DNA of 64,000 bases from Cytophagales bacterium. Lineage in GTDB: Bacteria; Bacteroidota; Bacteroidia; Cytophagales; Cyclobacteriaceae. The notes under the pieces were generated by a model. That model was not told the DNA's origin. It saw only the letters and a program-made list of their open reading frames with translations, and searched no databases. Below, in pieces: positions 765-57,300 of this stretch (position 1 is the first letter of the stretch; each line of letters opens with the position of its first letter). A program made the translations under genes and the position numbers. The DNA is taken from the NCBI GenBank assembly GCA_020403045.1, contig JADBYK010000031.1, forward strand, positions 1 to 64,000. Reading direction: 5' to 3'.

Positions 765-3611
765 TTAAAAATCCAGTTCAACGGTTTGTCCAGGAGTATA
801 CCCCTTTTCGTCATCATCTTTTTTTACTTCCTTTTTTTGGCTTTGATTTTCCTCGAAGAGGTTTGCTTGCTCGGCTCTTGGTCTTTTTTCCTTTGGCTTC
901 GGGGGCTGGCCGTTGACGAGCGGCTGGTTTTGATTTGCTTGGGACTGACTTTCCTCGAAGAGGCTTGCTTGCTCTCCCTCCTCTGGTTCTTCCCACCTGT
1001 TGCCCGAGGCCGGAGCGAAGGGGAATTTTTTTTTTGACGGTTGAGAACTTTTTGAGGTTTCAACAGTCGCCACCTCGTTATCCGAGTCGCCCTCTTCAAA
1101 GCCAGTTTCATCGGGATCTTCCAGTGACTTAATCTTAGTCACCTTGTATTGCGACAATCGATTTCCCAATGCCTTCCAACCTTTCACATCGACAATCTCA
1201 TCCAGACTTACCACTTCCGCCTCTTTATCCTTCCCTTTCCCTTTAACCACGTCCATCTCAATCTCTGGCGAATCCGAAGTACTGGCATACTCCAACCGTG
1301 AGCCAATGCCTTCGGAAATAAAACCAAATTCTTTATCTAATGTATTAGTCTCGATTAAGAATCGTTTAACAAAATACTGTTTGCTTTCGCCATCCAAATA
1401 AACAGCTGTAACCACTTTTTTAGGATTGTACTTCTGTACTAGAATGGTTTTTTCTGGTTCGTAGCGATTCGTCAATTCATAGCTGGTAATTTTGTATGTA
1501 CCACTTTTTGTGATGGCTATGATCTGATCGTCTCCATCAAATTTTCCAACATATTTACCACGCTTATCTTTATTCAATCGGCCGCTTGCCTCATCAAACC
1601 ACAAATCCAATCCGCTTAATGTCGAACCTCGCGATTCTTTAAAATCTACTTTACGCACAGGATATTTAGTAATCATATTACCACGTACCCCTCTCCCCTT
1701 CACTTCCAACTCTGAAAAATCAAAATCAAAAATCTTTTTACGGGCCGAACTTGCTGGTGTCAACTTAACTTCAACCACTTCCGCTTCCCCATTTGGATTG
1801 GCACTCAGGTAATGCACCTTGCTATTGGGATTTCCCATATCAAGATTATATTCTTTATCTCGCGTAATCGCAGGCATGGCAAAACGCTTGGCATACGTAA
1901 TTCCGCCCTTGCCGTCACTATAAACGAGATTGTAGATCATTCGCTCATCACCTTTACGCCAAATGCCCACGTGCAAAATGTCCTTGCCCATAAACACTTT
2001 TTCGTTGATGCGACTTACTTTCGCTTTGCCATCTCTACGGATAACGATTACGTCATCTAATTCAGAACAATCGGCAATAAACTCGTCCTTTTTCAAACTC
2101 CAGCCAATAAAACCATCTTCACGGTTTACATATAGTTTTTGGTTGTTGGCAATTACTTCAGTAGCGGCAACTGAGGTGAAGCTCTTAATCTCTGTTTTTC
2201 GCTCACGCCCTTTACCATATTTATCCAACAGATTTTGATAATAAGCAATCGCGTAGTCAGTTAAGTGTTTGAGATGATGTAGTGTTTCTTTCAGTTCTTT
2301 CTCCAAATCACGCATCAACTCATCCGCTTTAAACGAATCGTATTTAGAAATGCGTTTGATCCGAATCTCCAGCAAGCGCAAGATGTCATCACGAGTAATC
2401 TCCCGATAGAATTGTTTTTTATAGGGCCTCAGTCCTTTGTCAACAGTTGTAATTACCTCTTCAAAAGTTTCGACATCTTCAATATTTCTATAAATTCTTT
2501 TTTCAATGAAAATCTTTTCCAACGAAGAGAACAATATCTTCTCCATTAGCTCGGCTTTTCGGATCTCCAGTTCTTGTTTTAGAAGCTTTACCGTCAGCTC
2601 AGTATTATACTTCAAAATCTCATTCACTTTCATGAACTGAGGCCTATCGGCTACAATAACACAAGCATTGGGAGAAATAGAAACTTCGCAATCGGTAAAT
2701 GCATAAAGCGCATCAATGGCAATTTCGGGCGAAATACCAGCCTGCAAGCTCACGGAAATTTCAACGTCCTTAGCAGTGTTGTCCACCACTTGTTTCACCT
2801 TGATCTTACCCTTTTCGCTGGCCTTTACAATAGACTCCATCAGCGAAGCAGTTGTGGTGCCAAAAGGAATTTCTTTGATCAGCAGTGTCTTCTTATCTTC
2901 TATTTCAATTTTTGCCCTCACCTTTATTTTTCCTCCACGGAAACCCTGTTCGTATTCCGAGAAATCACCAATGCCGCCAGTAGGAAAATCAGGGTAGATT
3001 TTTGGGTTCTTCCCTTTCAACACATCGATGGATGCTTTAATCAGCTCGCAAAAATTATGAGGTAAAATTTTGGTCGACAAACCTACTGCAATCCCCTCAA
3101 CACCTTGTGCGAGTAGCAATGGGAATTTTACCGGAAGTGTGACAGGTTCTTTTTTTCGACCATCATACGAAAGCTGCCACTCTGTTGTCTGTGGATTGTA
3201 GACTACGTCCAACGCAAACTTTGAAAGGCGCGCTTCGATGTAACGAGGCGCTGCCGCACTGTCTCCCGTGCGAACGTCACCCCAGTTACCCTGGGTATCA
3301 AGTAACAAATCTTTCTGTCCTATATTAACAATCGCCTCACCAATAGCAGCATCTCCATGGGGGTGATACTGCATAGTGCTACCGATCACATTGGCCACTT
3401 TATTAAAACGGCCATCATCCATTTCTTTAATGGCATGAGCTATCCTGCGTTGTACCGGCTTTAGTCCATCCTCAATTCGTGGAACGGCACGCTCCAGAAT
3501 CACATACGAAGCGTAGTCCAGAAACCAATTTTCGTACATACCATCAATTGCGATCGAATGAACGTTCCCGTCTTTGTCTGTTGTTTCGTTAGGTATTTGC
3601 TTTTTACTCAT
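765..3611 (-). CDS. parC: DNA topoisomerase IV subunit A
   Basis: This is the breakage-reunion subunit of a type IIA topoisomerase, which passes one duplex through another to decatenate daughter chromosomes. The active-site tyrosine is Y124 within AAAPRYIEARLS, followed by the tower and coiled-coil regions and a C-terminal beta-pinwheel-like region (about 520-830). At 948 residues it is longer than a typical GyrA or ParC because of an acidic, Q/P-rich tail after about residue 850. That tail holds a duplicated motif, QASLFEE (881-887) and QANLFEE (915-921). parE lies 71 bases upstream on the same strand, which favours topoisomerase IV over gyrase. GyrA is the alternative, less likely because of the parE partner and the tail. 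Confidence 0.93.
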   Translation of the reverse strand: MSKKQIPNETTDKDGNVHSIAIDGMYENWFLDYASYVILERAVPRIEDGLKPVQRRIAHAIKEMDDGRFNKVANVIGSTMQYHPHGDAAIGEAIVNIGQKDLLLDTQGNWGDVRTGDSAAAPRYIEARLSKFALDVVYNPQTTEWQLSYDGRKKEPVTLPVKFPLLLAQGVEGIAVGLSTKILPHNFCELIKASIDVLKGKNPKIYPDFPTGGIGDFSEYEQGFRGGKIKVRAKIEIEDKKTLLIKEIPFGTTTASLMESIVKASEKGKIKVKQVVDNTAKDVEISVSLQAGISPEIAIDALYAFTDCEVSISPNACVIVADRPQFMKVNEILKYNTELTVKLLKQELEIRKAELMEKILFSSLEKIFIEKRIYRNIEDVETFEEVITTVDKGLRPYKKQFYREITRDDILRLLEIRIKRISKYDSFKADELMRDLEKELKETLHHLKHLTDYAIAYYQNLLDKYGKGRERKTEIKSFTSVAATEVIANNQKLYVNREDGFIGWSLKKDEFIADCSELDDVIVIRRDGKAKVSRINEKVFMGKDILHVGIWRKGDERMIYNLVYSDGKGGITYAKRFAMPAITRDKEYNLDMGNPNSKVHYLSANPNGEAEVVEVKLTPASSARKKIFDFDFSELEVKGRGVRGNMITKYPVRKVDFKESRGSTLSGLDLWFDEASGRLNKDKRGKYVGKFDGDDQIIAITKSGTYKITSYELTNRYEPEKTILVQKYNPKKVVTAVYLDGESKQYFVKRFLIETNTLDKEFGFISEGIGSRLEYASTSDSPEIEMDVVKGKGKDKEAEVVSLDEIVDVKGWKALGNRLSQYKVTKIKSLEDPDETGFEEGDSDNEVATVETSKSSQPSKKKFPFAPASGNRWEEPEEGEQASLFEESQSQANQNQPLVNGQPPKPKEKRPRAEQANLFEENQSQKKEVKKDDDEKGYTPGQTVELDF

Positions 3612-6243: not shown

Positions 6244-6280
6244 GTAACTACATTTGTGGTACAAATTAAATGCAAATACA

Positions 6281-6649
6281 TTGAACTATCGGTGCCTTTT
6301 CTTCTTTACTATTTTGTTATTGGTGTTACTGGGTTGCTCGAAGCCGCTGCCAACCCTCGAAAAAATAGACCTGGCAAAATGGAAGAATGACAAATGGGGC
6401 TGCTCGAAAGATCGGCTCGCAGCATTGCCCCAGTTGGTGAATCAAAAAGAAAAGTTAAAAGGCCTCTCGCAAGACGACATCGTCAAGCTTTTAGGCAGAC
6501 CCGACAAAAACGAACTGTATAAGCGCAACCAGAAGTTCTTCTATTACTATTTGACACCCGGAACGAATTGCGGGAGAGATACAATTACTCAACGACTTTC
6601 ACTTAGGTTCAATGCAATGGGGTTTGCGAAAGAAGTCCTCGTTGAATAA
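6281..6649 (+). CDS. Small lipoprotein
   Basis: A TTG start at 6281 gives MNYRCLFFFTILLLVLLGC, a lipoprotein signal peptide ending in the lipobox LLGC, so the mature chain starts at the cysteine. A TTG at 6254 is also open but puts nine extra residues before the signal and overlaps the divergent gene. The mature part (about 105 residues) contains GLSQDDIVKLLGRPD, which resembles the SmpA/BamE-type fold of small outer-membrane lipoproteins. The identity is uncertain. The frame stops exactly at the start of a tandem repeat. Confidence 0.6.
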   Translation: MNYRCLFFFTILLLVLLGCSKPLPTLEKIDLAKWKNDKWGCSKDRLAALPQLVNQKEKLKGLSQDDIVKLLGRPDKNELYKRNQKFFYYYLTPGTNCGRDTITQRLSLRFNAMGFAKEVLVE

Positions 6650-6722
6650 TCAAGATTCAAAGTTCAAGATTCAAAGTTTAGAGTTTAATGCCAAAGTTCA
6701 ATTTTGAGTTTTGAATCTTGAA
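6650..6722. repeat. Heptamer-type repeat and hairpin between convergent genes
   Basis: The 14-base unit TCAAGATTCAAAGT occurs twice in exact tandem (6650-6677), a doubled 7-bp period of related words. It is followed by degenerate TTAGAGT and CAAAGTTC words. TTCAAGATTCAA (6663-6674) is the reverse complement of TTGAATCTTGAA (6711-6722), so transcripts from either side could fold into a 12-bp stem. The block fills the whole gap between two converging genes and may act as a bidirectional terminator. It belongs to the window-wide heptamer family. Confidence 0.7.
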
Positions 6723-7223
6723 TTAACTGTGAAGAGCGTTTCTTTGAAAATGCTGTTTTTTCCTTTTCGCCTTTTCAATATTTGCCCAAAGAACATCCAC
6801 CAATGCTTCCTTCTTTTTGTGGTTGAAAGGGTAGAGAAGTGATGGCTTGAAATAAAACGTATCACCAAACAACTCTTTGGCATAAAGATCGACTTTGTAC
6901 ACCCCTTCTATTGAAGCTAAGTTAACGTCTTTAATGTTTTCAAGCGGTATTAGTAAATCTTGCTCTTTCTGCCTTACATACATAAATTCATGATCAAACT
7001 CCACATGAAATACCTTCTTGTTTACCCTCAGCCAAAGGTAAAAGAGATAAGCCCAATACAACGGTAAATACCAACTACTAAAACTACCCCTTTCAAATAA
7101 ATTCTCTCGATAGTAATAAGCGATGCTTGAGCAAACTACTAAGATGATTACCATCAATCCATACTTGTAAAAACTGAGGTAACGAGTCGACAAATTTCTA
7201 ATTCTGGATTTTTCTGGCACCAT
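6723..7223 (-). CDS. Two-helix membrane protein of unknown function
   Basis: ATG 7223 gives MVPEKSRIRNLSTRYLSF and a 166-residue product. A longer frame to 7304 would run into the start of the divergent dehydrogenase gene and is unlikely. Two hydrophobic helices (near 22-40 and 55-72) are followed by a soluble domain of about 90 residues with alternating charged strands, an arrangement seen in PH-like (bacterial pleckstrin) membrane proteins. I do not recognise the family with certainty. Confidence 0.6.
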   Translation of the reverse strand: MVPEKSRIRNLSTRYLSFYKYGLMVIILVVCSSIAYYYRENLFERGSFSSWYLPLYWAYLFYLWLRVNKKVFHVEFDHEFMYVRQKEQDLLIPLENIKDVNLASIEGVYKVDLYAKELFGDTFYFKPSLLYPFNHKKKEALVDVLWANIEKAKRKKQHFQRNALHS

Positions 7224-7263
7224 CGAAACTCTATCTTTACAGCTAACAAAAATAGTCAACTCA

Positions 7264-8151
7264 ATGAATAAAATAGCGGTTATTGGTTCCGGAACCATGG
7301 GCAACGGTATTGCGCATGTATTTGCTCAACATGGATTCAAGGTTTCCATCATAGATATTTCTGAAGATGCCTTAAAAAAAGCGATCTCTACCATTGACAA
7401 AAACCTTTCCCGGCAGGTAGAAAAGGGAACGATTACTGCCGATGCGAAGCAGCTAACTTTGTCGAATCTTTCTACCACCACATTTATAAAAGAAGGGCTA
7501 CAGGATGTAGAATTGGTGGTAGAGGCGGCTACTGAAAATCTGGAATTAAAATTAAAAATATTTAAAGACTTGGATGAAGTTACCAGACCAGGAACCATTC
7601 TTGCCTCCAACACTTCTTCTATCTCGATTACGAAAATAGCGTCAGTCACCAAAAGTCCGGGGAACGTGATTGGGATGCACTTTATGAACCCAGTACCCAT
7701 AATGAAACTGGTTGAGGTCATCAGAGGCTACAGCACCACCAATGAGACGACCCATACAATCATGGAGCTTTCCAAAAAATTGGGCAAAATTCCAGTAGAA
7801 GTAAACGACTACCCTGGCTTTGTGGCCAACCGGATTTTGATGCCCATGATCAATGAGGCAATATACTCCTTGTATGAGGGGGTAGCCGGTGTTGAAGAAA
7901 TCGACAACGTGATGAAATTAGGAATGGCCCACCCGATGGGACCACTTCAACTAGCCGATTTTATTGGGCTAGATATCTGCCTTTCTATTCTGCGTGTATT
8001 GCACGATGGGTTCGGAAATCCAAAGTATGCACCCTGCCCGCTGCTTGTTAACATGGTGCAAGCCGGAAACAAAGGAGTAAAATCGGGAAGTGGATTTTAC
8101 CAGTACATGACTGGAAACAAAGAACTTGTTGTAGCGGAAAAGTTCAAATAG
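7264..8151 (+). CDS. 3-hydroxybutyryl-CoA dehydrogenase
   Basis: This enzyme catalyses NAD(P)-dependent oxidation of 3-hydroxyacyl-CoA to 3-oxoacyl-CoA, or the reverse, in fatty-acid or butyrate metabolism. The N-terminal Rossmann motif is GSGTMGNGIAHVFAQHG (residues 8-24). The catalytic histidine is H139 in GMHFMNPVPIMKLVEV, with the partner glutamate about residue 151. The C-terminal helical dimerisation domain contains DYPGFVANRILMPMINEA. The length of 295 residues is standard for stand-alone Hbd/PaaH enzymes. The gene is monocistronic, closed by a strong hairpin terminator. Confidence 0.92.
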   Translation: MNKIAVIGSGTMGNGIAHVFAQHGFKVSIIDISEDALKKAISTIDKNLSRQVEKGTITADAKQLTLSNLSTTTFIKEGLQDVELVVEAATENLELKLKIFKDLDEVTRPGTILASNTSSISITKIASVTKSPGNVIGMHFMNPVPIMKLVEVIRGYSTTNETTHTIMELSKKLGKIPVEVNDYPGFVANRILMPMINEAIYSLYEGVAGVEEIDNVMKLGMAHPMGPLQLADFIGLDICLSILRVLHDGFGNPKYAPCPLLVNMVQAGNKGVKSGSGFYQYMTGNKELVVAEKFK

Positions 8152-19939: not shown

Positions 19940-20245
19940 ATGGCAAAAAAAGCAAAGAAGGCAGCAAAAAAGAAGGCAAAACCAGCCAAGAAATCAGCGA
20001 AAAAAGCGGTGAAGAAAGTAGTAAAAAAGGCGGCTAAGAAATCTGCGAAAAAAGCAACAAAAAAGGTTGTTAAAAAAGCAGCTCCTAAAAAAGCGGCTCC
20101 TAAGAAACCAGCAGCTAAGAAGAAATCTACGCCAAAACCTGCGCCAGCTCCCAAGCCCGCAGTTGTTGCAGCGGTGCCTGCTCCACCACCTGCTCCCGCC
20201 CCCGAAAGCAATGGTGGCGACATGGGAATGGGAGGCGCAAACTAA
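19940..20245 (+). CDS. Histone H1-like Lys/Ala-rich protein
   Basis: This 101-residue protein is built from KKA, KKAxK and KKVVKKA repeats through residue 70, followed by an A/P-rich stretch and a Gly/Met-rich end (GGDMGMGGAN). The composition matches the C-terminal tails of eukaryotic H1 and the bacterial H1-like proteins such as chlamydial Hc1/Hc2. It should bind DNA through charge, with little fixed structure. It has its own promoter and terminator. The repeated sequence makes the annotation rest on composition rather than homology. Confidence 0.8.
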   Translation: MAKKAKKAAKKKAKPAKKSAKKAVKKVVKKAAKKSAKKATKKVVKKAAPKKAAPKKPAAKKKSTPKPAPAPKPAVVAAVPAPPPAPAPESNGGDMGMGGAN

Positions 20246-23345: not shown

Positions 23346-23354
23346 AAATACTAA

Positions 23355-23389
23355 TAGTCCATGGTCGATTGTCCATCGACTATGGACTT
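23355..23389. repeat. Degenerate heptamer repeat after gltA
   Basis: Five 7-bp words of the form TnGTCsA fill the gap between gltA and the acyl-CoA-binding protein gene, starting TAGTCCA then TGGTCGA. The block is also partly self-complementary (AGTCCAT with ATGGACT). Its words resemble those inside icmF at 54838-54872. An ATG at 23361 lies inside it and is not a credible start. Confidence 0.6.
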
Positions 23390-26443: not shown

Positions 26444-26475
26444 AATGTTGAATGTTGAATTTTAAATGTTGAATT
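26444..26475. repeat. Heptamer repeat after ligA
   Basis: The word AATGTTG occurs twice in tandem and a third time after a short TTTA interruption, filling the 42-base gap between ligA and the next gene. It has the same 7-bp period as the other repeat blocks here but a different word. Confidence 0.65.
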
Positions 26476-30180: not shown

Positions 30181-30864
30181 ATGTCTGCTCTTTTACTATC
30201 TGATCGTATCATTCAATTCAACCAGCATCTTTCCATTTCCACACGTTTACCAAAAGATATTCAAGTTCTCAATCCATTTAAAGATCCTGTTACCTCTTAT
30301 CTAAGTCAGCTTTTTTACAAAAAGCATTATAACGACACCAAAACCCGAACAATGATTTTAGGGATCAACCCGGGGCGATTTGGATCCGGGCTAACAGGAG
30401 TTCCTTTTACAGACCCTATCAATTTGGAGAAGTATTGCGGCATTGAAAACAAACTCCCAAAGAAACAAGAAATCTCTTCAGAATTTATCTATAAAATGAT
30501 TGATGCCTTTGGCGGGTGTGATCGGTTTTATCAAACATTCTATTTTAGTTCTATCTCGCCATTGGGGTTTATAAAAGAGGGCAAGAATTTAAACTACTAT
30601 GACGTGAAAGGCTTGTCGGATAAATTGATGGAATTCATTCATTCGAGCCTAACTGAACAACTCAGTTGGGGAATGAATAGGGAAGTTGTCTTTTGCCTAG
30701 GTGAAGGGAAGAATTTCGCATTCCTTGAAGAGCTAAATACAAAACACAAATTCTTTAACAGAGTTGTCCCTCTCTCCCACCCTCGCTTCATTATGCAATA
30801 CAAGAGGACACGAGTGAAGGAGTATGTGGATGAGTATGTTAAGAAGTTAGAGGTTAGAGGTTAG
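30181..30864 (+). CDS. SMUG2-type uracil-DNA glycosylase
   Basis: This 227-residue protein carries UDG-superfamily motif 1 GINPGRFGSGLTGVPF (near residue 60) and motif 2 HPRFIMQYK (near residue 200). It resembles the SMUG2/DUF4918 group described from Pedobacter, which removes uracil and some deaminated bases from DNA. The last residues (KLEVRG) and the stop codon are encoded by a heptamer repeat that overruns the gene end, so the original C terminus may have been different. Confidence 0.82.
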   Translation: MSALLLSDRIIQFNQHLSISTRLPKDIQVLNPFKDPVTSYLSQLFYKKHYNDTKTRTMILGINPGRFGSGLTGVPFTDPINLEKYCGIENKLPKKQEISSEFIYKMIDAFGGCDRFYQTFYFSSISPLGFIKEGKNLNYYDVKGLSDKLMEFIHSSLTEQLSWGMNREVVFCLGEGKNFAFLEELNTKHKFFNRVVPLSHPRFIMQYKRTRVKEYVDEYVKKLEVRG

Positions 30865-30912
30865 AGGTTAGAGGTTAGAGGTTAGAGATTGGAGGTTAGA
30901 AGTTAGAGCTAG
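30846..30912. repeat. GTTAGAG heptamer repeat at the end of the SMUG2 gene
   Basis: GTTAGAG is repeated in near-perfect tandem about five to six times and then decays (GGTTAGA, AGTTAGA, GCTAGAA) to about 30912. The first copies are inside the coding sequence and provide its stop at 30862-30864. Looser words of similar length continue toward the helicase start. Confidence 0.85.
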
Positions 30913-30984: not shown

Positions 30985-32958
30985 TTGGCATCTTCTAAAG
31001 AGCAACTCCGCAAAACACTTGGCCTTCTGCAATTGGAACGTCAGGCAGACCTGGAACAATACCGACAAAAAGTATTACTGCGCCCGTTGCATGCTCGCGT
31101 AAAAGAAGGCATGACTTGGTATCCCGTTCGATTGGCGAAGGAGTACATTGGAACGGGAGAGCGAATCATTGTTGAAGTAGAGCGGACTACCCAAAAAGAT
31201 CAACCTCATGCCTTTCAAAGTGGAAAGATGGTAAGTGTCTTTTCGAATGCATCCGGCAAGTCCGAAAAGCAACATCAAAATGGCGTCATTAACTATGTAC
31301 GTGATAATCTTATGGTAATCACTCTAAATGGGGATGATCTTCCGGAATGGATTGATAGCGGTTCATTGGGCGTAGATGTAATGTTTGATGAGCTGAGTTA
31401 TCGCGAGATGGAGTACACGATAAAAAAAGTGATTGAAGCAGAGGACAATAGAGTAGCCGAGTTTCGGGAGTTGTTACTTGGACAGCAAGTTGCCAGTTAC
31501 CGGTTACCGGTTACCGGTAGCTCGACACCAGCAACTGCCTGCCTGCCGGCAAGGCAGGGAAACCGGGAACCAGAAATCAGCATTCTTAATAATAGTCAGC
31601 TAAAAGCAGCTCAGAAGATTATTGACAGCAAGGACATCGCCTTCATCCACGGTCCACCAGGTACTGGAAAAACTACAACGCTTGTTCAAGCGATCAAATA
31701 CACGGTAAAAGAAGAGGGGCAAGTGCTCGTATGTGCACCAAGCAATGCTGCTATTGACCTACTCGTGGAGAAACTGAGCGATCAAGGATTGAACGTAATC
31801 CGTATTGGCCACCCGGCACGCGTTACCGAACAATCGCTCAGTAAAACAATGGATGCGCGCATTGCAGAACATCCGAACTTTGACGAGTTGCGTTTGCTGC
31901 GCAAAAAAATGGAGCAGACCAAACAAAGAGCAAACAAATACAAACGCAGTTTTGGACATTTTGAAAAAGCAGAGCGGAAGTTGCTAAGGGAAGAGGCCAG
32001 ACAATTAAAGTCAGATGCCGACACGTTGGAATTCTATATTACCAACGACCTACTTCAAAAAAGCGAAGTGATTTGTTCTACTCTCGTTGGCGCATCGCAC
32101 CCTACCTTAAAAGGCAGAAGGTACAAGACTGCATTTATTGATGAAGCCGGACAAGCGCTGGAACCTTCCTGCTGGATACCATTTCTCCGTGCACAACGCG
32201 TCATCCTAGCGGGCGATCATATGCAGCTGCCACCAACCGTAAAATCAAACGAGGCTGCCAAGTTAGGATTGGCAGAAACACTCTTCGAAAAAGGCATTTT
32301 AAAACATCCTTCCCAGGCATCTATGCTTCAAGTGCAATATAGAATGCACGAATCCATCATGAAGTTCTCTTCGAGCTATTTTTACAAAGACGAATTGATC
32401 GCCCATGAATCTGTTCGTACAGAATTGCTGCGCCCCAATCAACCACCCGTTGAATTTATTGATACTGCCGGTGCCGGATTCACCGAAGAGCAAGATCCGG
32501 AAACCTTAAGTCGATTCAACAAAGAAGAAGCAGCACTTCTCATTCGCGTAGTAGAAAAATTAGTCGAAGAAATAGGATTAGAAGATTGGATTACTCAAAA
32601 CATTACGCTGGGTATTATCACTCCCTACAGGGCACAGGTAGACTATCTCCTTCATTTGGCCGAAAGCTCTTCATTCCTGGAACCACTTCAAAAGTTGGTT
32701 ACCATCAACACCGTTGATGCTTTTCAAGGACAGGAGCGTGACGTGATTGCCATAAGTTTCGTGCGTAGCAATGCGAAAGGAGAAGTTGGTTTTCTGGCAG
32801 ACATCCGCAGAACGAATGTAGCCATGACCCGAGCCAAGAAAAAACTAATCATGATTGGCGATAGTGCTACGCTGGGCACACATCTTTTCTATGTGAAATT
32901 GTTAGAGTATGTACAAACAAATGATTTTTATAAAAGTACTTTTGAAGTCAGTTTCTAG
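30985..32958 (+). CDS. UPF1/IGHMBP2-like superfamily 1 helicase
   Basis: This 657-residue SF1B DNA/RNA helicase starts at TTG 30985. A beta-barrel region (about 30-140) precedes the motor. Motif I is GPPGTGKT (223-230), motif II FIDEAGQALEP, motif III ILAGDHMQLPPT, and the C-terminal motifs include VNTVDAFQGQERDVIAIS, read here as INTVDAFQGQERDVI, and TRRTNVAMTRAKK-like RRTNVAMTRAKKK. Close relatives unwind DNA or RNA 5'-3' in an ATP-dependent manner. A low-complexity stretch at residues about 170-196 comes from repeat DNA inserted in frame just before the motor domain. Family members without it would be about 27 residues shorter. Confidence 0.88.
   Translation: MASSKEQLRKTLGLLQLERQADLEQYRQKVLLRPLHARVKEGMTWYPVRLAKEYIGTGERIIVEVERTTQKDQPHAFQSGKMVSVFSNASGKSEKQHQNGVINYVRDNLMVITLNGDDLPEWIDSGSLGVDVMFDELSYREMEYTIKKVIEAEDNRVAEFRELLLGQQVASYRLPVTGSSTPATACLPARQGNREPEISILNNSQLKAAQKIIDSKDIAFIHGPPGTGKTTTLVQAIKYTVKEEGQVLVCAPSNAAIDLLVEKLSDQGLNVIRIGHPARVTEQSLSKTMDARIAEHPNFDELRLLRKKMEQTKQRANKYKRSFGHFEKAERKLLREEARQLKSDADTLEFYITNDLLQKSEVICSTLVGASHPTLKGRRYKTAFIDEAGQALEPSCWIPFLRAQRVILAGDHMQLPPTVKSNEAAKLGLAETLFEKGILKHPSQASMLQVQYRMHESIMKFSSSYFYKDELIAHESVRTELLRPNQPPVEFIDTAGAGFTEEQDPETLSRFNKEEAALLIRVVEKLVEEIGLEDWITQNITLGIITPYRAQVDYLLHLAESSSFLEPLQKLVTINTVDAFQGQERDVIAISFVRSNAKGEVGFLADIRRTNVAMTRAKKKLIMIGDSATLGTHLFYVKLLEYVQTNDFYKSTFEVSF
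31487..31572. repeat. Heptamer and palindrome repeat inside the helicase gene
   Basis: CGGTTAC-type words occur four times in tandem at 31494-31521 and are followed by a CTGCCTGCC/GGCAAGGCAG imperfect palindrome (about 31535-31558). The whole block is translated as a Pro/Ser/Thr/Ala-rich linker between two conserved domains and keeps the frame open. Confidence 0.75.
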
Positions 32959-37726: not shown

Positions 37727-38998
37727 TTAAGCTGACAATTCGTTTACAATTTTTATGGCTCGGTCAATTTCATCTGTTGAATTAAAGATATGCGTAGAAT
37801 GTCTCACGCCAAAGACATCGCCTTGCGACCGCGGGCGCATCTTCGCTTTCGCCCAATATGCATCCTGGATTTGAGTGCCCGTTAAGCCTTCAATCGTATA
37901 CAAGGTAATGCCCGCGCACATCGCGTCTTCTTTCGGAGAAAAGATTTTGACTTTCTTATTTTGTTTCAGCCCCGTGCGCAAGCGATCTCCTAAAAATTTG
38001 ATACGCTCATATACTTTGTCGGACCCGAGTTGAAAATGAAAATCAAGGGCTGTTTCAAGGGCTAGTAAAACGGAAAAATTGCCCGTTCCTCTTTGTGTAA
38101 ACCGAAAGCCTTCATCTGCATGATCATCCCATCGGTAACTGGCGATGGTAGTCCAGAGGTCTTTCATATGCTCTGCCTTCACAAACATAAAGCCCGTTCC
38201 GGTTGGCGCACCCATCCATTTATGAAAGCAACCTACGTAGGCATCGCAGTCGATGTCTTTCAGATCAATTTTTATGTGACCTACCGTTTGAGCGCCATCC
38301 AATACCGTAAAAATTCCCCTTCTCTTTGCCTCTGCACACAATTCCTTCACGGGAAGAATTGCGCCTGAACCAGAGATCATGTGCGACAGCATCAACACTT
38401 TGGTCTTCGGTGTAAACGCTTTTACAATCGTATCATACACTTCTACCGAACTAGTAATTGGCTTTCCAATAGTCACTGTTTTAAAAACCGCTCCGAAACG
38501 TTTCTCCTTCACTTTCCAGGAAGATTGTCCGCCCCCGTGCTCTTGGTCGGTTGTTAAAATTTCATCACCGGGCTGCAATGTCATTCCATTCGCGATGTAA
38601 CTCATTCCATTTGTTACGTTGTCCGTCATTGCAATCTCGCCCACTTCACAGTTCAACAGTTTTGCCACTTTCGTTCGAATGGGTAATAGATTATTATAGC
38701 CGCTTATGAACTGTTCTTTGTTGTCATCTTTGTATGCCCAATCGGCAACATCGGAAGCCAGGTAGCGAGAATGTTCGGTTAGCTTTTCAAAAACCACGCG
38801 TGGCATCACTCCCACAGTTCCACAATTGAAAAAGACTTTGTCCTTGCTCAACATAAATTGACCGCGCACACTATCCCAAAATTTCGGATCTTCAAAATCA
38901 AGCAAAGGCTGTTGCAGGTCAGCCGCACGCACTTGCAGAGCCGATAGAGAGAGCGCTGAAAGGCCTAACGATTTGAGAACATTTCTGCGAGTTAACAT
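37727..38998 (-). CDS. Class V aminotransferase-like PLP enzyme, Tat-exported
   Basis: This 423-residue fold-type I PLP enzyme of the cysteine desulfurase/isopenicillin N epimerase group has the Schiff-base lysine in CFHKWMGAPTGTGF and the cofactor aspartate in VLDGAQTVGH. The N terminus TRRNVLKSLGLSALSLSA fits the twin-arginine signal (S/T)RRxFLK, implying export of the folded, cofactor-loaded enzyme. It lies upstream of the FMO gene. Substrate unknown. A heptamer repeat fills the region before its start. Confidence 0.85.
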   Translation of the reverse strand: MLTRRNVLKSLGLSALSLSALQVRAADLQQPLLDFEDPKFWDSVRGQFMLSKDKVFFNCGTVGVMPRVVFEKLTEHSRYLASDVADWAYKDDNKEQFISGYNNLLPIRTKVAKLLNCEVGEIAMTDNVTNGMSYIANGMTLQPGDEILTTDQEHGGGQSSWKVKEKRFGAVFKTVTIGKPITSSVEVYDTIVKAFTPKTKVLMLSHMISGSGAILPVKELCAEAKRRGIFTVLDGAQTVGHIKIDLKDIDCDAYVGCFHKWMGAPTGTGFMFVKAEHMKDLWTTIASYRWDDHADEGFRFTQRGTGNFSVLLALETALDFHFQLGSDKVYERIKFLGDRLRTGLKQNKKVKIFSPKEDAMCAGITLYTIEGLTGTQIQDAYWAKAKMRPRSQGDVFGVRHSTHIFNSTDEIDRAIKIVNELSA

Positions 38999-39009
38999 AG
39001 AGGATGGGA

Positions 39010-39083
39010 GTTAGATGTTAGACGGAAGACGGAAGACGTAAGACATAAGAAGTAAAATACAAGTAGTAAGACATAAGACAAAG
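39010..39083. repeat. Nine-copy degenerate heptamer repeat
   Basis: From 39021 nine consecutive 7-bp words can be read without slippage: two copies of GACGGAA, then GACGTAA, GACATAA and further variants ending at 39083. Related GTTAGAT words precede them. The block occupies the gap between the aminotransferase start and the end of the next minus-strand gene, and so would lie in their shared or separate untranslated RNA. Confidence 0.85.
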
Positions 39084-39088
39084 CATCT

Positions 39089-39505
39089 TTAAAGTAGATC
39101 AATGTGATAGACATCTGTTTCGTTGCGCTTGATATTTTTGAAGTGAAAACCGCCCGGCTGCGCAATCTCTTCCACCATATCAAACATCAAACAGCTTTTA
39201 GGAAGACCACCAAAAATTAGTAGAAAGGTAAAATCTCCCTTTCGGGGAATGATCGTCCACTGTGGGGCAAACGAGATGTTTTCTGCATGGACAAGCTGCG
39301 ACCTGGCTACTGAATCACGGTCGACCAAGAATGTAGTCGACCAGATACGAATCAACATGTCATCAGACGTATTGTTGAAATGGCAATGAACATACACAAA
39401 CGAATCCTCCATCGTAGACGGGTCAATAGAAGCCAACGTCTCCACATCCACTTTGGGCTTCACCAGAGGGTCTTTTACTTCAACAGCAGATCGAATCCAA
39501 TTCAT
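39089..39505 (-). CDS. Hypothetical beta-rich protein
   Basis: This 138-residue protein has no signal peptide. It is rich in strands and aromatic residues (DSFVYVHCHFNNTSDDMLIRI, shortened here as FVYVHCHFNN, then WTIIPRKGDFTFLLIF). I do not recognise the family. It starts four bases after the DUF1295 gene ends, so the two are very likely co-translated. Confidence 0.6.
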   Translation of the reverse strand: MNWIRSAVEVKDPLVKPKVDVETLASIDPSTMEDSFVYVHCHFNNTSDDMLIRIWSTTFLVDRDSVARSQLVHAENISFAPQWTIIPRKGDFTFLLIFGGLPKSCLMFDMVEEIAQPGGFHFKNIKRNETDVYHIDLL

Positions 39506-39508
39506 ACT

Positions 39509-40294
39509 TTACTTCTTGGGAAACCAGGGGAAAAAGGATGGTGTTCTGCGAATGTACTCCTCGTATTCCGGTTTGTTTTTTTTCAATGCTCTTTCCAGTA
39601 AAGCTACACCAGATACCTTCAAAAGAAGAAATGTCATGAGCACAGAACTCAATACAGGCCAGTAACTTCCGGCCGCTGTCGCAAACAACGCAAAACCCCA
39701 CCATACGCAGGCATCGCCAAAATAATTTGGGTGGCGCGTATATTTCCAAAAACCGGTATTCAATACTTTGCCTTTGTTGGATACATCTGATTTAAATTTC
39801 GACAGTTGATAGTCACCACCGGCCTCGAATGAGAAGCCGATGATCCAAAGTGTGAGTCCTAAAACATCCAACATCCCAAAAGGGCGATCTGACCCTTGCT
39901 GGGCGACCAGCAATGGCGATGAAATTAGCCATAACAAAATTCCTTGTAACAAAAACACTTGAAAAAAACTGAACCACCAATACCGTTCCGGACCATATTG
40001 TTTTCGGAATTGAGCGTAACGATAATCTTCTGGCTTACCGGCATTTCGAAATAAGAGATACCCAAACAAACGAAGTCCCCATACACTTGTCAAAAGCAAA
40101 ACAACCGCTTTTCGGGATAGATCACCCTCGGCATTGAAATAATAGTAAATCGCCAACAGCACAAATCCCAATCCCCAGAAGGGATCGACTATGCTCGCAT
40201 TGGTCAATTTCACACTCACCATCCATACAAAGGTGAGCATCACCATCACCACGCCAAATCCAAACAAGTAAACTGACCAAAATTCCGAGTGCAT
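39509..40294 (-). CDS. DUF1295 membrane oxidoreductase (steroid reductase-like)
   Basis: This 261-residue polytopic membrane protein has about seven helices. The C-terminal half carries YTRHPNYFGDACVWWGF, the NADPH-binding signature of the steroid 5-alpha-reductase/isoprenylcysteine-methyltransferase superfamily, and the ending RRTPSFFPWFPKK is characteristic of DUF1295. It probably reduces a double bond in a lipid or isoprenoid. The substrate is unknown. Confidence 0.87.
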   Translation of the reverse strand: MHSEFWSVYLFGFGVVMVMLTFVWMVSVKLTNASIVDPFWGLGFVLLAIYYYFNAEGDLSRKAVVLLLTSVWGLRLFGYLLFRNAGKPEDYRYAQFRKQYGPERYWWFSFFQVFLLQGILLWLISSPLLVAQQGSDRPFGMLDVLGLTLWIIGFSFEAGGDYQLSKFKSDVSNKGKVLNTGFWKYTRHPNYFGDACVWWGFALFATAAGSYWPVLSSVLMTFLLLKVSGVALLERALKKNKPEYEEYIRRTPSFFPWFPKK

Positions 40295-40387
40295 CGACCA
40301 AAATTCAAAATTTAGCGGATAATTGCCAAATGGATTTACTTATTGGTGAATGTGATTTCATACTTTAGTGCCCGTAACCTACTATCC

Positions 40388-40861
40388 ATGAGTCAACTCG
40401 TCATCAACAGTCACGAAGAATTCCAAACCTTTTTAGGTAAAGAATTGGGTGTATCTGAATACACGACCATCACGCAGGATCAAATCAACCGGTTTGCTGA
40501 TGCTACCCTCGATCACCAATGGATCCACACCGATCCTGCTCGAGCGGCTGTTGAAACCACTTTCAAAAGCACGATCGCGCATGGCTATTTAACCTTATCG
40601 CTGGTTCCTCATTTGTGGGATCAGATTGCCGAATTTAGAAATATCAAGATGATGATTAACTATGGTATTGAAAAACTAAAATTCAATCAACCCGTGCTGG
40701 TCAATCACGAAGTAAGACTTAGAGCCAAACTTCATTCTATTCTCAACCTCCGCGGAATCACTAAATTTGAGGTGGATGTAACATTAGAGATCAAAGACAA
40801 CGCCAAGCCTGCGTTTAATGGAATCTTAGTATTCTTATATCACTTTATTAATAGCAAATAG
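40388..40861 (+). CDS. MaoC-like (R)-specific enoyl-CoA hydratase
   Basis: ATG 40388 gives a 157-residue hot-dog fold protein. An upstream TTG extension to 40343 is not family-like. The hydratase-2 motif is present as DHQWIHTDPARA with the catalytic Asp and His, followed by AHGYLTLSLVPHLW. It is predicted to hydrate trans-2-enoyl-CoA to (R)-3-hydroxyacyl-CoA. Its stop is followed immediately by a heptamer repeat. Confidence 0.88.
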   Translation: MSQLVINSHEEFQTFLGKELGVSEYTTITQDQINRFADATLDHQWIHTDPARAAVETTFKSTIAHGYLTLSLVPHLWDQIAEFRNIKMMINYGIEKLKFNQPVLVNHEVRLRAKLHSILNLRGITKFEVDVTLEIKDNAKPAFNGILVFLYHFINSK

Positions 40862-40922
40862 GCTGCAAGGTTCATGCTGCACGCCTCACGCTTGTAGCCT
40901 GTAGCTTGCGGCCTGTGGCTCA
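40862..40922. repeat. Heptamer repeat GCnTGnn after the MaoC gene
   Basis: Eight 7-bp words beginning with G run in phase from 40862 to 40917, the clearest being GCTTGTA then GCCTGTA at 40890-40903, and a ninth begins at 40918. The block starts one base after the stop codon and ends 20 bases before the next start. The word is G+C-rich, unlike the A+T-rich words elsewhere. Confidence 0.8.
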
Positions 40923-40937
40923 AATCCGCTCAAAAAA

Positions 40938-41318
40938 ATGAAAGACTTCAAAAAATATTTTACGATAGCCGCACCCCCTGAAGATGTCTATCTGGCACTC
41001 ACCAATCCGAATACCATTCATCTGTGGTCTGGCGAAGAGGCTGAAATGAGTACCGAGCCCGGGAGTGAGTTTTCGCTCTGGGAAGGCAGTATAGCCGGAA
41101 AAAATCTGGAGTTCGAACCTAACAAGAAAATCGTACAACAGTGGTATTTTGGCGACCAAGTCGAACCTTCCATTGTCACCATGAAACTCCATGAAGATAA
41201 AGCCGGAACTTCTGTAGAACTTCGACACACAAATATTCCTGATCAAGATTACGATGATATTGTTGAAGGGTGGATCAACGCATACTTCGGGTCGATCGAA
41301 GAATTCTATGCCGAGTAG
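40938..41318 (+). CDS. SRPBCC (START/AHSA1-like) domain protein
   Basis: This 126-residue single-domain protein begins KKYFTIAAPPEDVYLALTNP and has the GTSVELRHTNIPDQDYDDI C-terminal part typical of AHSA1-type helix-grip proteins, which bind hydrophobic ligands or partner proteins. No ligand can be named. The SET-domain gene begins four bases after it ends, so the two are translationally coupled. Confidence 0.82.
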   Translation: MKDFKKYFTIAAPPEDVYLALTNPNTIHLWSGEEAEMSTEPGSEFSLWEGSIAGKNLEFEPNKKIVQQWYFGDQVEPSIVTMKLHEDKAGTSVELRHTNIPDQDYDDIVEGWINAYFGSIEEFYAE

Positions 41319-41321
41319 CCC

Positions 41322-41738
41322 ATGGCATTGCTAGAAAAAAGTCTTTTTATCAAGAAATCAAACCTACCGAAAGCAGGGAAAGGTCTTTTTACTAAAATAG
41401 AAATTAGTAAGGGAACACGCATCTTGGAATACAAAGGTAAAATGAGAAAATGGAAAGAGGTGAAGCACCTCGATGGCTACAACGGTTATCTGATGTATAT
41501 TACCCGAAGTGCAGTGATCGATGCACTACACTACAAGAAAACCTTAGGCCGATACGCCAACGATGCGAAAGGATTTAGTAGAATTTCCGGACTTCGAAAC
41601 AACTGCGAATATGTAAGCGAAGGTAATCGATGCTACCTCGAAGCAAAACGTTCTATTCGTAAGGATGAAGAATTGCTGGTGGCCTATGGAAAAGAGTTCT
41701 GGCAGCTGCAACGAAAAATAAGAAGGTCTATAAGATAA
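41322..41738 (+). CDS. SET-domain protein (putative lysine methyltransferase)
   Basis: This 138-residue protein consists only of a SET domain. GKGLFTKIEISKGTRILEY is the N-terminal SET strand set, RYANDAKG and NNCEYV correspond to the NHS-type pseudoknot part, and EELLVAYGKEFW corresponds to ELxxDYG. It should use S-adenosylmethionine to methylate a lysine. The substrate is unknown. Because SET proteins in Chlamydia methylate H1-like proteins, the H1-like protein at 19940-20245 is one candidate. Confidence 0.85.
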   Translation: MALLEKSLFIKKSNLPKAGKGLFTKIEISKGTRILEYKGKMRKWKEVKHLDGYNGYLMYITRSAVIDALHYKKTLGRYANDAKGFSRISGLRNNCEYVSEGNRCYLEAKRSIRKDEELLVAYGKEFWQLQRKIRRSIR

Positions 41739-54339: not shown

Positions 54340-57300
54340 ATGGCTGCTGCTACTTCCGAGAAAAAAGAGAAATCCGTTTCGCTGGCCGGGCATACCGCGC
54401 CCGAGTCGTACAAGCCCAAAAACAAAGTGCGCATCGTCACTGCGGCCAGCTTGTTTGATGGGCACGATGCAGCCATCAACATCATGCGCAGGATCATTCA
54501 GGCCACGGGCGTAGAGGTGATTCACCTCGGCCACGACCGCAGTGTGGAAGAAGTAGTGAACACTGCCATACAAGAAGATGCGCAGGCCATCGCGATGACG
54601 AGCTACCAGGGAGGCCACACAGAATACTTTAAATACATGTACGACTTGCTGCAAGAAAAGGGCGCGGGTCACATCAAAATATTTGGCGGTGGCGGAGGCG
54701 TGATCTTGCCCGATGAAATCAAAGAGCTGATGGACTACGGCATCACTAAAATTTATTCTCCCGATGATGGCCGCGCCATGGGTTTGCAGGGGATGATCAA
54801 TGATTTGGTGGAGCGGAGCGATTTTGCTACCGGCAAGACCATTGACCATGGTCCGTTGACCATCGACAACCACGTGCGCATTGCGCAATACATTTCAGGA
54901 GCAGAGAATTATTTTGACGATCATAAAAAAGCATTTGAAGAGATCAACCAAAAAGCTACGCTGTCCAAAGCACCGGTGTTGGGCATTACGGGCACGGGTG
55001 GCTCGGGCAAATCTTCGATGGTGGATGAAATTGTGAGACGATTTTTAATTGACTTTAAGGATAAAACAATCGGGTTAATTTCGGTCGATCCATCGAAACG
55101 CAAAACGGGTGGTGCGCTGTTGGGTGATCGTATTCGTATGAATGCCATCAACAACTCGCGCGTGTACATGCGCTCGTTGGCCACACGGCAAAGTAATTTG
55201 GCACTATCGGCTTATGTGAAAGAAGCAGTGCAAGTGTTGAAGGCTGCTGGTTTCGATATTATTATTTTAGAGACATCGGGCATTGGGCAGAGTGATACCG
55301 AAATCCTAGACCACAGCGATGTATCGCTCTATGTTATGACACCTGAATATGGTGCGGCTACGCAATTGGAAAAAATCGATATGCTCGATTTTGCCGATGT
55401 GATTGCACTCAACAAATTTGACAAGCGAGGTGCATTAGATGCTTTGCGCGATGTAAAAAAACAGTATCAGCGCAATCATAATCTCTGGGACAAAAAGCCG
55501 GAAGATATGCCGGTGTATGGCACGATTGCATCGCAGTTTAACGACCCGGGCACAAACCAACTTTACAAACATTTGATTGATACGCTCAACGCGAAGACGA
55601 ATGCAGATTTAACGTCTTCATTTGAAATCACCCGCGAAATGAGTGAGAAGATTTTTGTGATCCCTCCGCACCGCACTCGCTACCTCAGCGAGATATCGGA
55701 GACGAACCGCAAATACGACCAGTGGGTAAACGAGCAAGCGGAAGTGGCTCAGAATTTATATGCGATTGAAAAAGTGAAGTCGCTGCTCAAGAGCAAAGCA
55801 GAATTGGAAAGCGAAGAAGGCAATTTGAGATTGAGCTTGAATCCGAAGAACTGGAAACTGATTGAAGAGTGGCCAGCCAAAGTGCAACAATACAAAGCAC
55901 CATTGTTCAAGTTTAAAGTAAGAGATAAAGAACTCGCCATTCAAACCCACACCGAATCGTTGTCGCATTCGCAAATACCAAAAGTAGTTTTGCCTTCTTA
56001 CAAAGCGTGGGGCGATTTGTTGAAATGGATGCTGCAAGAAAATGTGCCGGGAGAATTTCCGTACACGGCAGGCATTTATCCTTTCAAGCGCGAAGGCGAA
56101 GATCCTACCCGCATGTTTGCAGGTGAAGGTGGCCCCGAGCGCACGAACAGACGCTTTCACTATGTAAGCAAGTCGATGCCCGCGAAGAGATTATCGACTG
56201 CCTTTGACTCGGTAACACTTTACGGAAATGATCCAGACTACCGTCCGGATATTTATGGCAAGATCGGCAACTCGGGCGTTTCGATCTGTTGCTTAGATGA
56301 CGCCAAGAAATTGTATAGCGGCTTTGATTTGTCTGATCCAAAGACTTCTGTATCGATGACGATCAACGGTCCCGCACCGATGCTACTCGCCTACTTCATG
56401 AATGCGGCCATCGATCAGCAATGCGAGATTTACATCAAGAAGAATGGATTGGAGGAGGAAGTACGTAAGAAGATTAAAGCGATGTATGCCAAAGGCGATG
56501 CACCTGCTTATCAGGGAGAATTGCCGGAAGGAAATAATGGGTTGGGATTAATGCTGCTCGGAACTACAGGAGATCAGGTGTTGCCGAAAGATGTTTACGA
56601 AAAAATCAAAGCCGACACACTCACGCAAGTGCGTGGCACGGTGCAAGCCGATATTTTAAAAGAAGATCAGGCACAGAACACGTGTATCTTCTCCACAGAG
56701 TTTGCCTTGCGCTTGATGGGTGATGTGCAACAGTATTTTATTGATAAGAGTGTTCGGAATTTTTATTCGGTATCGATCTCGGGCTATCACATTGCCGAGG
56801 CGGGCGCAAATCCGATCACACAGTTGGCATTTACTCTTTCAAATGGTTTCACCTACGTGGAATATTATTTGAGCAGAGGGATGGACATCAACGAGTTTGC
56901 GCCCAACCTTTCGTTCTTTTTCTCGAATGGCATCGATCCGGAATATGCCGTGATCGGTCGAGTAGCCAGAAGAATTTGGGCGAAGGCGATGCGCGAAAAA
57001 TACGGAGCGAATGCGCGCAGCCAAATGATGAAGTATCATATTCAAACTTCTGGTCGCTCGTTGCATGCGCAAGAGATTGACTTCAACGATATTCGTACTA
57101 CGCTGCAAGCACTGTATGCGATTTATGATAACTGTAATTCGTTACACACCAATGCCTACGATGAAGCCATCACCACTCCCACCGAGGGATCCGTTCGCAG
57201 GGCAATGGCTATCCAATTGATCATCAACAAAGAGTTGGGTCTGGCCAAAAATGAAAATCCGTTACAGGGGTCTTTCATCATTGAAGAGCTCACCGACTTA

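Follow-up and report, generated by a model that had tools for sequence, protein, structure and literature searches.

Period-7 arrays at gene ends in an uncultured Cytophagales genome: possible REP-like hairpins with heptad arms

Why should a bacterial genome carry, in several of its short intergenic gaps, tandem arrays that share a period of seven bases and are nevertheless written in different words? This question is raised by a 64,000-nucleotide stretch of DNA (hereafter, the window), which is part of contig C50 of the draft genome of an uncultured, Cyclobacteriaceae-like member of the Cytophagales (4.02 Mb in 124 contigs; hereafter, G000). The nearest named matches of its ligA gene are MAGs labelled Cytophagales, Cyclobacteriaceae or Flammeovirgaceae, with protein identities of 91-94%. 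An earlier note had listed eight period-7 blocks in the window. When a lag-7 cluster is defined as a 28-bp frame with at least 20 of 28 matches at lag 7, six of the eight pass, with best identities of 20/28 (blocks 6650 and 23355), 21/28 (26444), 28/28 (30846) and 24/28 (31494 and 39021), whereas blocks 40862 and 54838 reach only 19/28. The window contains six lag-7 clusters and none at each of lags 2-6 and 8-10. The four clusters at lag 14 are the lag-7 arrays again, and there is one cluster each at lags 11, 12, 13, 15, 18, 20, 21 and 24; in 40 first-order Markov windows, zero lag-7 clusters were found. Across a sample of 938.7 kb of G000 (60 stretches, with the window counted in), 41 clusters at lag 7 compare with 4 at lag 6, 9 at lag 8, 5 at lag 9 and 1 each at lags 10 and 11, and multiples of 3 or 7 are also raised (5 at lag 3, 11 at lag 12, 26 at lag 14 and 23 at lag 21). 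The excess at lag 7 over shuffled sequence and over lags 6 and 8, which the earlier note had expected in gaps shorter than 150 bp, is present: in 224 short gaps of G000 (40-149 bp, 18623 bp in all), z against 60 mononucleotide shuffles is 11.1 at lag 7, 1.4 at lag 6, 4.9 at lag 8 and 6.9 at lag 14, and ranges from -4.6 to 1.3 at the rest of lags 3-15. The period-7 blocks are real, and because of this excess they belong, by period, with the heptanucleotide SSR/STRR repeats.

Where do these blocks lie? Six had been placed in gaps and two in genes, and this description holds: 31494 and 54838 are genic, 30846 begins in the end of an ORF and the five others are in gaps. The gap between the convergent ORFs 6254-6649 (plus strand) and 6723-7304 (minus strand), neither of which has a Pfam match, is filled by a TTCAARR-armed hairpin (6650..6722; fold z -4.5) that belongs to a word family found at many loci. 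A GTCNATN-type hairpin (23354..23388; fold z -5.9) lies between the citrate synthase and ACBP genes; the start of an ORF called at 23361 is an ATG within this array, and the start kept in relatives sits right after the array. The AATGTTG array (26444..26474, plus strand) is located 4 bp 3′ of the ligA stop and 7 bp 5′ of the next start. The GTTAGAG array (30842..30907, plus strand; 28/28 at lag 7) forms no hairpin (fold z 0.71); it starts within the 3′ end of the UDG-family ORF 30181-30864 and provides the stop codon of that ORF. The GTTACCG array (31485..31518, plus strand) is part of the coding sequence of the helicase gene (30985-32958), where it sits in a hypervariable in-frame linker. The AAGACRT array (39010..39083, plus strand) lies between two minus-strand genes, with a core at 39010-39050 and degenerate copies up to 39083. 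Right after the stop of a MaoC-like gene there is a hairpin with GCYTGTA-type degenerate heptad arms (40862..40922; fold z -3.7), in which the period of seven shows wobble. The last block (54838..54872, plus strand) is a weak lag-7 stretch (19/28) within a poorly conserved linker of an IcmF-like mutase gene; its fold is ordinary (z 0.27), and the block is probably due to chance. A repeat of another kind is found at 19940-20245, where tandem periods of 24, 33 and 48 bp overlap in the gene for a 101-residue, Lys/Ala/Pro-rich, repetitive basic protein (MAKKAKKAAKK...), which looks histone-H1-like by eye.

The preference for gene ends extends to the sampled genome. Among the 41 G000 blocks, 24 are in co-directional gaps, 5 in convergent gaps, 1 in a divergent gap and 2 at stretch ends; the other 9 are in called ORFs, some of which are probably intergenic, because ORFs were called with a simple longest-ORF script rather than a gene finder. 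A stop codon is overlapped or lies at most 5 bp away in 19 of the 30 intergenic blocks, compared with 10.1 expected (p = 0.0002; the 30 blocks sit in 26 gaps and so are not all independent), whereas start codons are close to 4 blocks, with 7.4 expected. The single block in a divergent gap represents a deficit, as such gaps account for 94 of the 408 gaps and for 23909 of the 81260 intergenic bp (p 0.004 by gap number and 0.0004 by bp). We considered the end of ligA as a hotspot and do not count it as one: 8 of the 35 blocks in 80 named loci are directly after ligA, and related species are included among them. Beside these counts, a TTCAARR hairpin in a relative (centre of locus L367, genome G013) appears by eye to lie between two tRNA genes.

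Inverted partners, which are absent from the earlier note, were found here within 150 bp (score at least 12) for 15 of the 41 G000 blocks, in 11 gaps, whereas a direct partner was found for 1 of 41; 14 of 41 blocks score at or above the 95th percentile in a cross-flank null drawn from the flanks of other blocks. At this threshold 26 blocks have no inverted partner, a count that includes hairpins within one block, such as 23354, which the test misses. The reading that we prefer, at a little under an even chance, is that the blocks are REP-like gene-end hairpins with slippage-prone heptad arms and constitute one element class. According to this reading, degenerate arrays of a seven-base word, often two of them facing each other across an unrelated loop, would let the gap fold as a hairpin; the arms would gain or lose length through slippage or unequal exchange, usually in seven-unit steps; and, as far as sequence can suggest, the hairpins might be kept or tolerated at gene ends as REP-like transcript structures that provide 3′-end protection, attenuation or a weak barrier. 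The REPs of Escherichia coli and other bacteria are described as extragenic palindromes, some of them near stop codons, and those no more than 15 nt from a stop reportedly cause ribosome stalling and lowered translation (PMC12306157). The present hairpins resemble REPs in being palindromes at many extragenic sites, a share of them near stop codons, and differ in having no RAYT link, arms that are heptad arrays and loops that are unrelated. Against the REP-like reading, the gene-sense folds of three arrays are unremarkable (26444, z -1.45; 30842, z +0.71; 39010, z +0.10). The opposite strand of 39010 folds with z -3.2, and 31485 has z -2.4. Two properties of the words fared poorly as candidates: a mini-hairpin inside a single 7-nt word gave no general fit in the few words checked by hand, and a word that supplies stops in all three frames is a misfit, in the gene sense, to TTCAARR and to the 39010 array.

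Could these hairpins be plain intrinsic terminators whose periodicity is a matter of chance? They do lie beside stop codons and are nearly absent from divergent gaps, and the 23354 gap is a case in point: in the window and six aligned relatives, the orthologous gaps hold conserved terminator-like stems with compensated changes (AAGTCC...GGACTT), several of which are followed by T-runs. The relatives' stems may indicate how one array was seeded, and also under the REP-like reading some hairpins, such as this one, would be intrinsic terminators or derive from them. As a general explanation, however, chance periodicity conflicts with the lag-7 excess in gaps and with the existence of single arrays that have no hairpin, and we consider it very improbable. 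None of the six blocks between 23000 and 42000 was flagged when that range was scanned for terminators, a result that counts against the REP-like reading as well. A known RNA family was also rejected as a candidate, as Rfam 15 gave no match above the gathering score in the window.

The paired arms have a fixed polarity. TTCAARR pairs are inward in 10 cases and outward in none, and the corresponding ratios are 34:0 for TTRNTNG, 2:0 for GTCNATN and 2:0 for GATTTNN; when hairpins with like loops are merged, 10 (TTCAARR) and 25 (TTRNTNG) independent hairpins remain, all 35 of them inward. Because the strand of each word was set by the first hairpins seen in its family, the evidence consists only of the agreement of the later ones. 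Five further words gave at most one pair each (GTTCTNA 1:0, GATGACN 1:0 and, in L127, ATTCTNA 0:1), and single pairs are uninformative. Across the four families, the word is directed away from the closer gene edge in 56 of 61 paired arrays and 24 of 29 single arrays, and in 29 of 31 arrays in G000; by family, the rule reads 2:2 for GTCNATN and 13:3 for GATTTNN. This rule was judged on 90 of 202 arrays, the other 112 being dropped (79 in ORFs, 19 in gaps longer than 250 bp, 10 at stretch ends and 4 ties). In hairpins that fill their gap, the orientation away from genes follows from the inward polarity; in single arrays, it may reflect decayed hairpins.

Neither the arms nor the loops behave as copies of one palindrome. 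At the variable positions, arms match their partners no better than re-dealt arms (0.692 versus 0.683, p 0.46; 0.609 versus 0.584, p 0.17), and an earlier, more biased set of 19 loci gave the same result (0.66 versus 0.67, p 0.64). Therefore, exact pairing at these positions is not maintained, and this lack of agreement rules out exact palindrome copying between the arms. Loops more than 80% alike were merged for the comparison of distinct loops, which was repeated unmerged. The 27 distinct TTRNTNG loops are alike at the shuffled level (0.345 versus 0.339), and the 8 distinct TTCAARR loops are slightly more alike than shuffled ones (0.299 versus 0.238). In the unmerged set (18 and 35 pairs), any two loops that are at least 80% alike also have alike flanks (0.84-1.00), and such hairpins are therefore the same or an orthologous locus; between hairpins with unrelated flanks, a loop likeness of 0.6-0.8 is seen only if one loop has 9-14 bases.

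These observations bear on whether a REP- or MITE-like palindrome was spread by copying and pasting, through a RAYT or some other transposase. REP elements are linked to RAYT; the spread of a unit would explain the fixed polarity, and the 6650 hairpin and an arm at locus L022 do match many loci in G000, G010, G011, G013, G155 and G156. Against this, strongly alike loops occur in both families only at the same or orthologous loci. The transposase also fails to accompany the arrays. First, of 12 RAYT loci examined, 7 of which lie in genomes that carry arrays, not one is flanked by a lag-7 array within 1-1.5 kb. Second, across ten genomes Y1_Tnp does not track the arrays: G010 is rich in TTCAARR and has zero Y1_Tnp matches (in a genome 81% complete), whereas G012, G008 and G009 have 4, 3 and 3 Y1_Tnp matches and 0, 1 and 0 TTCAARR matches, respectively. 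We rejected RAYT/REP mobility on these two grounds. Third, the alignments of orthologous gaps include no clean empty site with a target duplication. Dispersal of this kind is thus improbable. The earlier note had favoured local slippage over the dispersal of one element, and it was right insofar as whole elements are not copied, since hairpins with unrelated flanks share no loops; it went too far in treating the words as independent.

How independent, then, are the words? Each block had been thought to have a word of its own. Genome-wide this is not so: 14 of the 41 G000 blocks have an exact word (up to rotation and strand) in common with an independent block, compared with 3.9 ± 2.6 (at most 11 in any of 100 draws) for random 7-mers from intergenic sequence matched in AT content. 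When one mismatch is allowed, sharing is not significantly above expectation (36/41 versus 31.1 ± 2.9, maximum 38). The degenerate words TTCAARR and TTRNTNG recur at many loci in several species, although the loci for these two words came partly from similarity and pattern searches, which biases their word content. The copies within an array are degenerate, with an average of 5.2 mismatches per array over 35 arrays of G000, and their variation sits in set columns, with summed chi values of 306 versus 184 ± 14 in these 35 arrays (the 41 blocks less those that are shorter than 28 bp or identical), 57 versus 31 ± 6 in 7 arrays of G024 and 228 versus 158 ± 14 in 35 other arrays, a set that includes some orthologues. 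Column by column, ten TTCAA arrays that were detected from lag alone have mismatch fractions of 0.12, 0.05, 0.17, 0.02, 0.07, 0.31 and 0.12. Because slippage that copies variants would also cluster changes, this clustering supports, and does not prove, set variable positions.

The vocabulary differs among species of the genus: G013 and G024 are rich in TTCAARR and poor in TTRNTNG, and G012 is the opposite. Triple TTCAARR, counted in ten genomes on both strands with overlapping matches, occurs 35 times in both G013 and G024, 30 times in G000, 20 times in both G010 and G011, 18 times in G155, 13 times in G156, once in G008 and not at all in G009 and G012; the reversed control is 0 except for 1 in G155. 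Triple CNANYAA, the reverse complement of TTRNTNG, was counted in 21 genomes: 88 in G011, 43 in G000, 40 in G010, 35 in G007, 32 in G006, 31 in G012, 28 in G156, 27 in G018, 26 in G005, 24 in G155, 16 in G015, 9 in G008, 8 in G020, 7 in G009, 2 in both G013 and G024, 1 in both G001 and G002 and 0 in G016, G017 and G023, with a reversed control that is not clean (9 in G000, 17 in G007 and 8 in G006). Words may also meet in one gap: at the centre of L369 (G011), a TTGAATC array appears by eye to face an array of a different, AGAAGTTAGGAGT-type word, and in a convergent gap of G024 (L192:17263-17414) there is a long compound AAAGCGG/AAAGCTGT array in which steps of 7 and 8 bases are mixed.

Comparison with close relatives reveals that the arrays turn over rapidly. 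At orthologous gaps they change length, appear, vanish or bear another word. Over 38000-41500, identity to the window is 96% for G155 and 89% for G156. The 39010 gap spans 90 bp in the window and 81 bp in G155, a difference of -9 that consists of several indels whose placement depends on the alignment; in G156 it is 67 bp, with a clean 21-bp (three-heptad) difference between two GTAAGAC units. The same gap measures approximately 15 bp in G011 and 39 bp in G012, and the array is absent in both (gap lengths in these two genomes are extrapolated where the flank alignment ends early). The 40862 hairpin is present at equal length in G155 (gap 76 bp) and absent in G156 (32 bp), G011 (approximately 18 bp) and G012 (approximately 10 bp). 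The 6650 gap grows from 73 bp in the window to 124 bp in G155 (+51), with a longer TTCAARR arm between flanks that are 91% and 80% identical, and in G011 it is 29 bp long, without the array. The 30842 array, between flanks 95.7% and 99.3% identical, is 71 bp long as against 79 bp in G010 (+8, one heptad plus one base). The helicase linker (window 31485-31640, compared with L083 and L182) lies between the N-terminal and AAA regions, and among close species its length and sequence vary while the frame is kept; the 31494 array was compared with its orthologues in G010 and G155, and a 21-bp difference to G010 adjoins the array rather than lying inside it. The earlier note had anticipated changes in copy number at orthologous loci. 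Length does vary, and the clean three-heptad change at 39010 in G156 fits this expectation, whereas the other differences, namely +8, -9 and +51, are not multiples of seven.

The word itself also changes from relative to relative. The word AATGTTG of the 26444 array, which follows ligA, is present in L083 and L085 and not in G010 (here the locus set overlaps with the genome set: L084, L087 and L089 are G010, G012 and G011, respectively, one genome each). The ligA gap holds TTGAATC in G002 and GTTCTCA in G023, and a long GCAGTTA array follows ligA in Labilibaculum-type loci (L137, L140 and L143), as does a long GTTATTG array in Emticicia aquatilis (L127). Such drift of length and word is what would be expected from neutral local slippage, in which chance repeats seed heptad arrays that grow and decay without function and share words only via composition. 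The general abundance of heptanucleotides, which are reported to outnumber other long simple repeats in most of the genomes surveyed (Mrazek 2007, as cited in PMC4679880), points the same way. Three results argue against it: exact word sharing in 14 of 41 blocks, even though sharing at one mismatch is not significant; the 35:0 inward polarity in two families, which slippage of arbitrary local seeds does not explain; and the 15 inverted partners against 1 direct one. The confinement of variation to set columns is a fourth, although variant-copying slippage would have the same effect. We regard neutral slippage as unlikely. Slippage gives a good account of the changes in arm length and none of the shared words and polarity; the REP-like reading that we prefer likewise does not account for the same words with the same polarity at unrelated loci.

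These features would fit a trans-acting machine: a polar protein that reads the framework positions, or else a polymerase that copies a short degenerate template onto the ends of DNA. As a consequence, each arm would be made separately and always in the same direction, and the same word and polarity at unrelated loci, the independent arms, the unrelated loops, the set variable columns and the vocabularies that differ between species of the genus would all be in keeping with it. The arrays abut gene edges, however, rather than random break points; arrays of eight-base words exist too; and the reader or writer is still hypothetical, Y1_Tnp having been the sole candidate sought. Taken as a whole, such a machine is quite unlikely. 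A bolder formulation is that the heptads are a directional degenerate code: a few framework words, foremost TTCAARR and TTRNTNG, would be written or retained at the edges of genes, on both strands and directed into the gap, with independent arms and free variable positions, and this would call for a polar array-binding reader or a templated 3′-end-extension writer, the heptads of Xanthomonas and Nostoc being one dialect. This proposal we judge unlikely.

How far does the class extend? Loci around ligA were collected from 80 named records, with taxonomic groups assigned from the record titles. Lag-7 clusters number 10 in the 19 near relatives, 0 in the 7 Roseivirga-type loci, 10 in the 26 other Cytophagales (lag 8: 9), 7 in the 13 Bacteroidales-type, 5 in the 11 Flavobacteriales-type (lag 8: 2) and 3 in the 4 Sphingobacteriales-type loci (lag 8: 3). 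Among 20 genomes sampled from family to phylum rank, at 20 kb each, 3 have lag-7 clusters (10 in total, compared with 2 at lag 6 and 1 at lag 8). The heptad class is widespread yet patchy. Long arrays were also seen further afield: TTTCGAA/TTTCGAG/TTTCGGT heptads at L052:277-459 and 2961-3016 (G026, from another family within the order), and, where the locus of a Crocinitomicaceae MAG begins (L139:1-190), a long run of ATTCATA with AATCACA heptads after it.

Among known systems, the nearest are the G-rich heptads of Xanthomonas and Nostoc, GGGNATC and GGGGAYT (Rehm et al. 2015, PMC4692102). As described there, they have a period of seven, are degenerate at set positions and are mostly intergenic, near or overlapping stop codons, with 7-9% between divergent genes; they vary in length and sequence between related species; convergent pairs number 70 and 75 in two Xanthomonas genomes and are few in Nostoc; and the word is carried by the coding strand just past stops and by the non-coding strand shortly before starts. 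The present arrays resemble them in period, placement, convergent pairs, variation between species and the strand rule around genes: their pairs are inward (10:0 and 34:0), and 19 of 30 intergenic blocks are close to stop codons and 1 of 30 lies in a divergent gap. They differ in that several non-G-rich words occur per genome, whereas in that study a single G-rich, quadruplex-forming word is examined in each genome. Its authors investigate how quadruplexes form and cite, to explain why heptamers are abundant, the idea of a polymerase footprint. By inspection, the frameworks of TTCAARR, TTRNTNG, GTCNATN, GATTTNN and GTTAGAG contain no GGG, so a quadruplex, which we rejected as an explanation here, cannot be the cause common to both sets; and a strict footprint of 7 nt is at odds with the existence of an octad class (lag 8, z 4.9). 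We suggest, from sequence comparison, that the heptads described here may be a variant of this known heptad-repeat class that works like REP hairpins.

Cyanobacterial STRRs consist of near-perfect heptamer copies with the same few words throughout a genome. The arrays reported here are like them in being heptamer tandem arrays with more than one word per genome, and unlike them in being short, degenerate and often paired as hairpins, with words that differ among species of one genus. For Calothrix, three STRR heptanucleotide words are mentioned in PMC4692102. The TAACTGA repeats of Beggiatoaceae, Cyanobacteria and five Bacteroidetes (MacGregor 2015, PMC4679880) share with the present arrays the heptamer direct repeats in gaps and the patchy distribution; according to the accounts of them in that paper, they differ in having one fixed word that lies mostly just upstream of starts in the main genome and in that related heptamers are rarely repeated. 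A GTTATCA array in L122 is a rotation of the reverse complement of TAACTGA. Our literature search found no paper on multi-word heptad hairpins in Bacteroidota. Heptamers dominate the long simple repeats of bacteria, and we have here a similar placement and convergent polarity with words free of G-runs, several to a genome, in arrays that turn over between close relatives. These arrays separate period, word and function, and each of the three can be tested in Bacteroidota, some of which are cultured.

Finally, a second and weaker class of arrays has a period of eight. It is likewise degenerate and recurrent, with words such as AATTTGAA in the genome of the window and AATGAGTG/CACTCAAT in Emticicia relatives, and its arrays were found at L164:13734-13821, L020:14871-14909, L231:5052-5094 and L235:14866-14902, and also at L130:9847-9916, L128:9070-9111 and L132:9026-9071.
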